A stretch of DNA of 36,867 bases from the NCBI GenBank assembly GCA_029879905.1, contig JAOUPN010000007.1, forward strand, positions 1 through 36,867. The letters run 5' to 3'. Shown piece after piece: positions 32,492-35,000 of this stretch (positions are counted from its first letter, which is position 1; each line of letters starts with the position of its first letter). The notes beneath the pieces were generated by a model. The model ran no database searches. It saw only the letters and a program-made list of their open reading frames with translations, and was not told where the DNA came from. Origin of the DNA: Nitrospira sp. Lineage in GTDB: Bacteria > Nitrospirota > Nitrospiria > Nitrospirales > Nitrospiraceae. A program made the position numbers and the translations under genes.

Positions 32492-33514
32492 CTACGCGGC
32501 TTTTGCGGGTCGCCATCGAAGGCCGACGTTCAAAAGCTCCTGCAGGAGTTCTTGATACTGATACCCGGCATGTTCCGCTGAATCGGCAAAATCCTCCCGG
32601 TACGCGATTTGCGGGTTCGGATTGGCTTCCAACACGTACAATTGCCCTCCGCTGTCCATACGCATGTCGATCCTGGCATAACCGTTAAGCCCGAGCACCC
32701 GGTAGACCCGTTTGGCCAAATGCTGGATCTCTTCGCGTTTCCTCGCCGGGAGTTGCGTGGCTTCTTGTGAAACAATGCCGTACTTGAGCTGATACGTCCT
32801 GCTCCATTTCACCCGTTCTGTCGCAATCCGTCGGGCATCATCCGGGAGCTTGTCGAGGATCAACTCCCAGACAGGGAGCGCCTGCAGATGTCCGTTACCG
32901 ATGACTCCGACATAGAATTCCCGCCCCTCAATATACTGTTCGATCAGCGCCCCGCTTCCGACATGATGGTGAATGAACGCGACCCGTTCACGTAATTTCT
33001 CGTCCTCCTCCACGATCGAGGCCTGCGAGATCCCCAACGACGCCTCCTCCGTGGTTGATTTGACGATCAAGGGGAACGCCAGTCCTTTCGGCCGTCTGAC
33101 GACACGCCCATGAGGGACTTCAATGAACTTCGGATGGGGGATGCGATGGAACGACAACATTTTCTTGGTCAAGGCCTTATCACGTGCCAGCATAAGACCG
33201 CGGGGGTTACAACCGGTATAGGGCAGATGCAGAAGTTCGAGGTAGGACACCACATGCTGATCGTATACGGCGATGCCGTCGAATTCTTCCAATAAATTGA
33301 ACGCAATGTCCGGCTTGTACTCATCGATGGCCTGGCGGATCACTTCAAGATCGCTCTTGACTCCGAGCGGCCTGACGTCATGGCCGATTTTTCTCAGCGT
33401 CGTGACGACGTCGTATTCGGTTCTCCACTCTGCCGCGGTAGGATCTTGGCCGCCCGTCTCTTCGGGTGGAACGAGATCTCCATGCATGAGGACGAGAACG
33501 CGCAAACGCTTCAT
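32492..33514 (-). CDS. ATP-grasp ligase of the D-Ala-D-Ala ligase family
   Basis: The 340 residues have a D-Ala ligase layout. The N-domain starts MKRLRVLVLMHGDLVPPEE; then FDGIAVYDQHVVSYLELLHLPYTGCNPRGLMLARDKALTKKML, the ATP-lysine strand FPLIVKSTTEEASLGIS, the ALIEQYIEGREFYVGVIG strand and the metal site RIDMRMDSGGQLYVLEANPNPQIA. The metal-site variant EANPNP differs from the EVNTNPG of true Ddl, and there is no mur/fts context, so a carboxylate-amine ligase with another substrate is more likely. It overlaps the metallopeptidase gene by four bases (ATGA). The frame continues 16 codons beyond the stop. Confidence 0.85.
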   Translation of the reverse strand: MKRLRVLVLMHGDLVPPEETGGQDPTAAEWRTEYDVVTTLRKIGHDVRPLGVKSDLEVIRQAIDEYKPDIAFNLLEEFDGIAVYDQHVVSYLELLHLPYTGCNPRGLMLARDKALTKKMLSFHRIPHPKFIEVPHGRVVRRPKGLAFPLIVKSTTEEASLGISQASIVEEDEKLRERVAFIHHHVGSGALIEQYIEGREFYVGVIGNGHLQALPVWELILDKLPDDARRIATERVKWSRTYQLKYGIVSQEATQLPARKREEIQHLAKRVYRVLGLNGYARIDMRMDSGGQLYVLEANPNPQIAYREDFADSAEHAGYQYQELLQELLNVGLRWRPAKAA

Positions 33515-34572
33515 ACGGCCACTCGATGCCTCCCGCTTCTCAAAAAATTCATCGTATGAACCGTCAGCAGAATCGTGAAGTCGAGTTTGGCTTGCTCCTC
33601 CGCCACCGGAACATGCAGATCCAGTTCACGGCAGCGAGCGATCATGGCCTCCAACACCTGATCGATCGTATATTGATATTCGCCGGTCCAACTCGCGACC
33701 TTCCGCCGGACTTCCCGTCGAAACCGATTAAGAAAAGTCGCGGCCTTCGGCTTGTCTCGATGGGCGGGGGGACTCGCAAACAGACGTTTGAGATCAGGGT
33801 CGTAGAGCGACTGCCGGTCGACTCCATAATGTCTGCGTTTCCACTCATAGTGTTCCCGAAGCGTTTTCTTCAGGGAGGGCAAGGGATCCACTTCCTCATC
33901 GGTCGTCACGGCAGGAGAGACTCCCGAAAGTTCTTTCATCAATCCGTCGACATAGCGAAGTTTCTTCAAGACGGGCCATCCTCGGTACCGTTCTTCCCAT
34001 GCCGAATTCGGCGTCAACCAGACGGCAAATGTTTCGGCAAAATCTTCGTCCGGATGGCTTTGCGCATACCAAACGTCCAAATGGTGCACGAAGCTTCTGC
34101 TGTACGGGCGCGGCGAATAATACAGCGGATAACGTTGTGACGATTTTCCGAAAATCTTCTGGCGAATCTTGCGGCGCCGGATCTTGAAGGCGTTTTCGAT
34201 GGCGTGGCCGGCTTCGTGGCGCAAAATGCGCAAGCACCAATCCGCGGTGCCTCCCTCCACTTCCAACATCTGCGTCAGTTCAAGCCTCGCCAGACGAGGA
34301 TGGGCAAGATAAAAGGGGACGGCAATACCGGGAATCCCATCGGGCGTAAACCATTCGTTCGAGATCCAAAAATGCGGGTGAAACAGCAACTGCCGCGCTT
34401 CGAGTTCACGAGACAATTCGGCAATCGGCTGCTCAAGGAACCCGCCTGTGACCTTCAACTGCAACTCACACATCGGAAGATCGAGTAGATCCTCATCAGA
34501 CCATGAGGCCCATGGAGGATCCTCCTGATCGACTACCGGTGTCTTTAGGGCATCGGTCCCTGCGCGCGACAT
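33511..34572 (-). CDS. Putative zinc metallopeptidase (HExxH)
   Basis: The 353-residue protein has no signal peptide and is probably cytoplasmic. The zincin motif is RILRHEAGHAIENAF (H119, E120, H123), followed about 55 residues later by SHPDEDFAETFAVWL, likely giving the third ligand as in 'putative zinc-binding metallopeptidase' families. The N-terminal region (LCDLP-like motif ELQLKVTGGFLEQPIAELSRELEARQLLFHPHFWISNEWFTPDGIPGIAVPFYL) is well ordered, and the C-terminal 130 residues are helical and basic. It is translationally coupled to the ATP-grasp gene downstream, suggesting the two act on one peptide-like substrate. The ATG has no Shine-Dalgarno. Confidence 0.75.
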   Translation of the reverse strand: MSRAGTDALKTPVVDQEDPPWASWSDEDLLDLPMCELQLKVTGGFLEQPIAELSRELEARQLLFHPHFWISNEWFTPDGIPGIAVPFYLAHPRLARLELTQMLEVEGGTADWCLRILRHEAGHAIENAFKIRRRKIRQKIFGKSSQRYPLYYSPRPYSRSFVHHLDVWYAQSHPDEDFAETFAVWLTPNSAWEERYRGWPVLKKLRYVDGLMKELSGVSPAVTTDEEVDPLPSLKKTLREHYEWKRRHYGVDRQSLYDPDLKRLFASPPAHRDKPKAATFLNRFRREVRRKVASWTGEYQYTIDQVLEAMIARCRELDLHVPVAEEQAKLDFTILLTVHTMNFLRSGRHRVAV

Positions 34573-34764: not shown

Positions 34765-35000
34765 CTAGCCCGCATTATTCATGACAGTTCGTCGCCCGTT
34801 CGACAGGCTCAGGGTCCCGAGCATCGTCGAGGGACGAAATCGCCAAGCCGCGTCGCGAGAGCGGCGCGCGGAGGCCTGAGGTTCTGAGGCGTACTCGTGC
34901 AGTACGTCGAGGGACCGAGGGGCGAGCCCGCCGCCTACAGGCTTGTCGCAGCAGCGGATCGGCGATTGCAGCAGAAGTGCTCATGAATAATGCGGGCTAG
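34765..35000. mobile_element. 236-bp palindromic-ended element (MITE- or REP-like)
   Basis: CTAGCCCGCATTATTCATGA (34765-34784) is repeated exactly in inverted orientation at 34981-35000. The interior is GC-rich and full of smaller inverted repeats, e.g. CGTACT-CGTGC-AGTACG, GTCCC...GGGAC and CCGCG...CGCGG. It has no transposase; a 69-codon ORF on the minus strand starts and ends in the terminal repeats but is arginine-rich and not protein-like. Non-autonomous transposable element or multi-hairpin RNA element are both possible. No clear target-site duplication is seen. Confidence 0.65.

Follow-up and report, generated by a model that had tools for sequence, protein, structure and literature searches.

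Does a zinc metallopeptidase gene that overlaps a gene for a ligase resembling D-alanine-D-alanine ligase (Ddl) form a functional unit with it, and which reactions could the two proteins carry out? The question is raised by a stretch of 36,867 nucleotides from Nitrospira sp. (assembly GCA_029879905.1, contig JAOUPN010000007.1), here called the window, which comes from a fragmented genome, Nitrospira-like and 4.1 Mb in size. Both open reading frames and the four-base overlap, described in a first-pass annotation of the window, are present on the minus strand:

33511..34572, minus strand: zinc metallopeptidase gene, first of the pair (open reading frame, 353 aa)
32492..33514, minus strand: Ddl-like ATP-grasp ligase gene, second of the pair (open reading frame, 340 aa)
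33511..33514, minus strand: ATGA overlap of four bases between the peptidase stop and the ligase start (sequence)

Gene layout and conservation of the pair

The pair is flanked upstream by a repeat element of 236 bases and a ttcA-like gene in divergent orientation, and downstream by an outer-membrane-barrel-like gene on the opposite strand. The repeat, a MITE-like element at window positions 34765-35000 between the peptidase gene and ttcA, exhibits perfect 20-base terminal inverted repeats, CTAGCCCGCATTATTCATGA, and its arm pattern gave 38 matches in the genome at up to two mismatches and 0 for the reversed control pattern. The neighbours identified in the window, a subset of its genes, are an aminotransferase, PPDK, diaminopimelate decarboxylase, arg genes, a phosphoglycerate mutase-like gene and a TtcA-like PP-loop protein, in agreement with the earlier remark that no mur genes are nearby.

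The gene neighbourhoods of both families were surveyed, as the first-pass annotation had proposed, and the pairing was found to be conserved. In 111 of the 112 pairs obtained from fetched loci of Nitrospirota, Acidobacteriota, Planctomycetota and others, the two genes were adjacent and on the same strand with the peptidase first, and the four-base overlap recurred in 73 of the 112. When peptidase relatives were fetched by sequence alone, 74 out of 80 had a ligase on the same fetched locus, directly downstream and on the same strand in 73 cases and separated in one (L080); the remaining 6 had no ligase on the fetched locus. Among 148 Nitrospirota genomes, 43 had the peptidase, 42 of these and no others had the ligase, and every strong ligase match of the Nitrospirota sample (46/46) adjoined a peptidase match. 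The sole Nitrospirota genome with a peptidase and no ligase, G070, contains a peptidase fragment with a stop, which we take as a joint loss of both genes. The peptidase was also detected in 35 of 148 Planctomycetota genomes, where all fetched peptidase matches above about 300 bits have a ligase alongside. Pairwise distances of the two proteins were correlated, with a Mantel r of 0.91 against a best value of 0.28 in 999 permutations; this value is supporting only, as species relatedness and shared descent also give a high r. Since the pair has been kept together across several bacterial phyla, the peptidase and the ligase very probably do one job together, and the view of the locus as a functional pair holds.

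Two unrelated genes left side by side by chance would give a similar picture within Nitrospira, where the wider region (ttcA, phosphoglycerate mutase) is also syntenic. However, the pair persists while all other neighbours change between phyla, its adjacency persists outside Nitrospirota, and the pairing is seen with other ligase clades and in other orientations, so that shared synteny as the sole explanation deserves hardly any credence.

Of 149 Acidobacteriota genomes searched at E 1e-60, 36 had the peptidase and 32 the ligase. Peptidase and ligase are 5-19 kb apart or unlinked in some Acidobacteriota, two genomes (G397 and G439) have a strong ligase and no peptidase at this E 1e-60 threshold, and there are also solo peptidases with no ligase partner. 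Diverged Acidobacteriota peptidases (240-290 bits) adjoin Ddl-like ligases of two other clades: the two genes are on the same strand in L174-L177 and L186, and convergent, tail to tail, in L181, L183, L184 and L187, the ligases of this convergent group forming a separate clade in the tree. Adjacency thus outlives operon structure and, because it survives changes in both orientation and ligase clade, argues for a coupled function.

Sister Ddl-like ligases were observed in other gene groups. In the planctomycete locus L162, such a ligase adjoins a C39-like peptidase, with a Pfam match slightly below cut-off, and in the acidobacterial locus L192 a ligase of the same sister clade adjoins a similar protein without Pfam match; two phyla thus show a further pairing of ligase and peptidase, here with a peptidase of another class. 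In four Planctomycetota loci (L151, L152, L153 and L155), two tandem Ddl-like ATP-grasp genes are followed by a GNAT-acetyltransferase-like gene and then, in L151, by a lysine 2,3-aminomutase gene and, in L153, by a gene for a DUF3109 protein. This gene group is a possible amino-acid amide pathway.

No third gene was conserved across phyla, neighbour clustering giving only clade-level synteny. The ttcA, phosphoglycerate mutase and low-molecular-weight phosphatase-like genes and a small unknown gene are syntenic in Nitrospira only. Recurrent genes for an ABC exporter, an AAA ATPase and a GatA-like amidase are confined to groups of Acidobacteriota. In one of these groups (L061, L062, L065, L068, L069 and L083), to which the arrangement is limited, the pair stands directly after an Amidase-family GatA-like gene that overlaps it in some loci. 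In L050, L059, L078, L080 and L082, an ABC exporter-type gene is found near the peptidase in several arrangements, and in L059 it adjoins the AAA ATPase. A defence system was rejected, as there was no PADLOC family match, and so was plasmid or phage spread, as tblastn gave no match in the plasmid or phage collection.

Predicted active sites of the two enzymes

The peptidase sequence exhibits an HEAGH motif at residues 119-123 followed by HPDEDFAE at residues 173-180, and a helical region, some 110 residues long, at the C-terminus. The HExxH motif and the downstream H-P-x-E-D-F-A-E are fully or almost fully invariant across 103 paired sequences of up to 63% divergence, and one of the invariant acidic residues in the downstream E-D-F-A-E is presumably the third zinc ligand. 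The Pfam family PF15887 (Peptidase_Mx) matched the window peptidase with 28.2 bits for a cut-off of 27, over 76 of the 236 profile positions and in the zinc-site region only; the assignment of this predicted peptidase is therefore barely above the cut-off. In the same way, PF15887 matched all 42 scanned peptidase relatives at E<0.01. The AF2 model (pLDDT 81, pTM 0.67) gave only weak matches in the PDB, the best being 4l7a, a Bacteroides zinc-binding metallopeptidase, at E 0.23 and the others mainly catalytic domains of clan-MA metallopeptidases, and no fine family was therefore assigned. Inspected by eye, the N-terminus has neither a hydrophobic signal nor a lipobox, which bears out the earlier description of a peptidase without signal peptide, and the protein is presumably cytosolic.

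The best Pfam match of the ligase was PF07478, the ATP-grasp C-terminal domain of Ddl, with 96.8 bits for a cut-off of 24; PF08443 (RimK) was absent among its Pfam matches. With the D-Ala-D-Ala ligase model TIGR01205 it scored 111.5 bits, below the cut-off of 245.65, and its scores are far under the cut-offs of the Ddl and Van models. Its AF2 model (pLDDT 89) has Ddl structures as closest PDB entries, with 19-26% identity. The positions aligned with the ATP and Mg residues K97, K144, E180, E187, R255, D257, E270 and N272 (DdlB numbering) are invariant in 113 sequences. The first-pass annotation had seen in the sequence EANPNP a metal site departing from that of D-Ala ligases. This does not stand: E296-A297-N298 corresponds letter for letter to E270-A271-N272 of E. 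coli DdlB, the difference being in the stretch after EAN, and metal-site divergence is thereby ruled out as a sign of new function.

As judged from the alignment, the real departure from Ddl is in the predicted substrate-contacting motifs, namely the Glu15 loop and Ser281-Leu282, and not in the metal site. The Glu15 loop of Ddl could not be aligned, and a longer family-specific segment, VPP...W(K/R)TE, is found instead; E33 was considered as the Glu15 equivalent and rejected because, in the alignment, it falls where the next helix begins. At the positions of DdlB Ser281-Leu282, which contact the carboxylate of the second D-Ala, the family has E307 in 112 of 113 sequences and D308 in 103 of 113. 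Because this invariant acidic Glu-Asp pair replaces residues contacting that carboxylate, it weakly suggests that the amine partner is basic or has no free alpha-carboxylate. When six true Ddl sequences were included in a tree, the paired ligases fell into one fully supported clade on a long branch from Ddl.

A canonical ddl is present in the same genome, flanked by murB and an ftsQ-like gene (neighbours named from sequence). Of the two cases that the first-pass annotation had named as contrary to its proposal, neither therefore applies: the paired ligase is not the organism's sole source of Ddl, and the pair is conserved. This ddl (G000:C426, L001) contains a single in-frame TGA at about position 1342. 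The gene scored above the model cut-off in 21 of 24 genomes, the source genome included, and most relatives, among them the pair carriers G068 and G089, have an intact full-length ddl. Since the ddl of the relatives is intact and the genome is fragmented, the TGA is probably an assembly or consensus error.

A replacement Ddl is excluded by the cell's own ddl, the TIGR01205 score and the position in the tree. The ligase could also be a second enzyme making D-Ala-D-Ala or D-Ala-D-Xaa, in which case the peptidase would serve resistance or the recycling of cell-wall dipeptides by a VanX-like logic; the Ddl fold, the PF07478 membership and the TGA in the genome's own ddl would fit this. The sub-cut-off scores for the Ddl and Van models, the fully supported long branch, the replaced Glu15 loop and Ser281-Leu282 and the intact ddl of most relatives make it very improbable. 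The earlier view of the ligase as something other than a D-Ala-D-Ala ligase is thus borne out by its score, its substrate motifs and its separate clade.

Proposed function

We favour, with modest confidence, a self-contained cytosolic module of two enzymes, a ligase and an amidohydrolase, that would form and cleave one amide. This reading is based on the conserved pairing, the layout suited to translational coupling, the intact ATP, metal and zinc motifs and the substrate site unlike that of Ddl. The ATP-grasp ligase would activate a carboxylate with ATP to an acyl phosphate, as in Ddl, and join it to an amine to give an amide; the zinc peptidase would hydrolyse the same or a related amide bond, and both enzymes together would set the level of one amide-linked product. 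Such a product might be an amino acid or short tail that is attached to a protein or peptide and removed again, or else a small amide metabolite that the cell makes and turns over. We infer that both enzymes work on one and the same bond, in opposite directions; instead of reversing the ligase reaction, the peptidase may have a different substrate or a regulatory effect on the ligase. The unlinked pairs, the two ligase-only genomes, the solo peptidases and the marginal, local match to Peptidase_Mx are counted against the two-enzyme module.

A protein target and a small-molecule target were given about equal weight. In the first form of the module, a doubtful one when taken singly, amino acids would be written on and erased from a protein end or side chain by a RimK-like ligase and a RimB-like peptidase. 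Its logic is that seen with RpsF, to which the ATP-grasp ligase RimK adds glutamates and from which the protease RimB removes them (PMC11957791). Two genes would suffice for it, with no biosynthetic partners conserved, and the position of the pair after a GatA-like amidase in one Acidobacteriota group is a weak hint of a translation context. Against it, the ligase is Ddl-like and not RimK-like, the known Ddl-type ligases act, to our knowledge, on small molecules, and no gene for a target protein shows linkage to the pair across phyla.

In the second form, likewise tentative, the cell would use common metabolites to make, and would later turn over, a small dipeptide or other amide such as a storage compound or a compatible solute. 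The Ddl fold of the ligase is in line with this, as are the Planctomycetota sister ligases grouped with a GNAT acetyltransferase and once with a lysine 2,3-aminomutase, and the other sister ligase clade adjoining a C39-like peptidase. Against it, no linked pathway, exporter or carrier gene is conserved beyond single clades.

A further reading is a maturation of the graspetide type, in which the ligase would cross-link a precursor peptide and the peptidase would cut its leader. Graspetide loci use ATP-grasp ligases and some of them include zincin peptidases (PMC8939145). In the 700-base flanks on either side of the pair, no short ORF or precursor peptide was found across phyla, the conserved flanks corresponding to Nitrospira synteny, and the strongest family match of the ligase is Ddl and not a graspetide ligase; we consider this maturation highly unlikely.

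Returning to the two-enzyme module, a broader and clearly more speculative proposal is that it represents a reversible non-ribosomal system of amide tagging or amide metabolism in at least Nitrospirota, Acidobacteriota and Planctomycetota, with single cases in other phyla, in which one peptidase lineage, partnered by two or more lineages of Ddl-like ligases, would erase the amide that the ligases write. Most of the Nitrospira family members that were sampled carry the module, as do many Acidobacteriota and Planctomycetota, and with both predicted active sites intact it must be useful to its hosts. Its product could turn out to be a new small molecule or a new modification of proteins in bacteria of environmental importance. 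The ligase is likely annotated simply as a D-Ala-D-Ala ligase, and the identity of the product would correct such annotations. The compact two-gene format is directly testable in a laboratory host.

Comparison with known systems

Among the openly licensed papers searched, none described this pair, none contained PF15887 and none contained both annotations together, which is weak evidence of absence. The pairing of ATP-grasp enzymes with peptidases is, as a general idea, already known: Iyer et al. reportedly predicted in 2009 neighbourhoods in which amidoligases are linked to peptidases of unrelated folds, and the present pair shares with these the general linkage of amidoligase and peptidase.

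With DdlA and DdlB (PF07478, TIGR01205), the ligase shares the fold, the ATP-site lysines and glutamates, the metal ligands D257, E270 and N272 and the equivalent of R255. Unlike them, it scores less than half of the Ddl cut-off, has VPP...W(K/R)TE for the Glu15 loop and Glu-Asp for Ser281-Leu282, and is partnered with a peptidase in a genome that has a separate ddl. The peptidase resembles Peptidase_Mx (PF15887) in the HExxH zinc-site region and the downstream acidic motif, the match being marginal and local, and differs from it by additional N- and C-terminal regions and by its ligase partner. Graspetide loci differ from the pair, which has no precursor peptide gene beside it in the 700-base flanks. 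In RimB-RimK, as in the system inferred here from the genes, a peptidase and an ATP-grasp ligase work in one system; there, a RimK-type ligase is combined with a retropepsin-like aspartic protease, whereas here a Ddl-type ligase would be combined with an HEAGH/PF15887 zinc peptidase.
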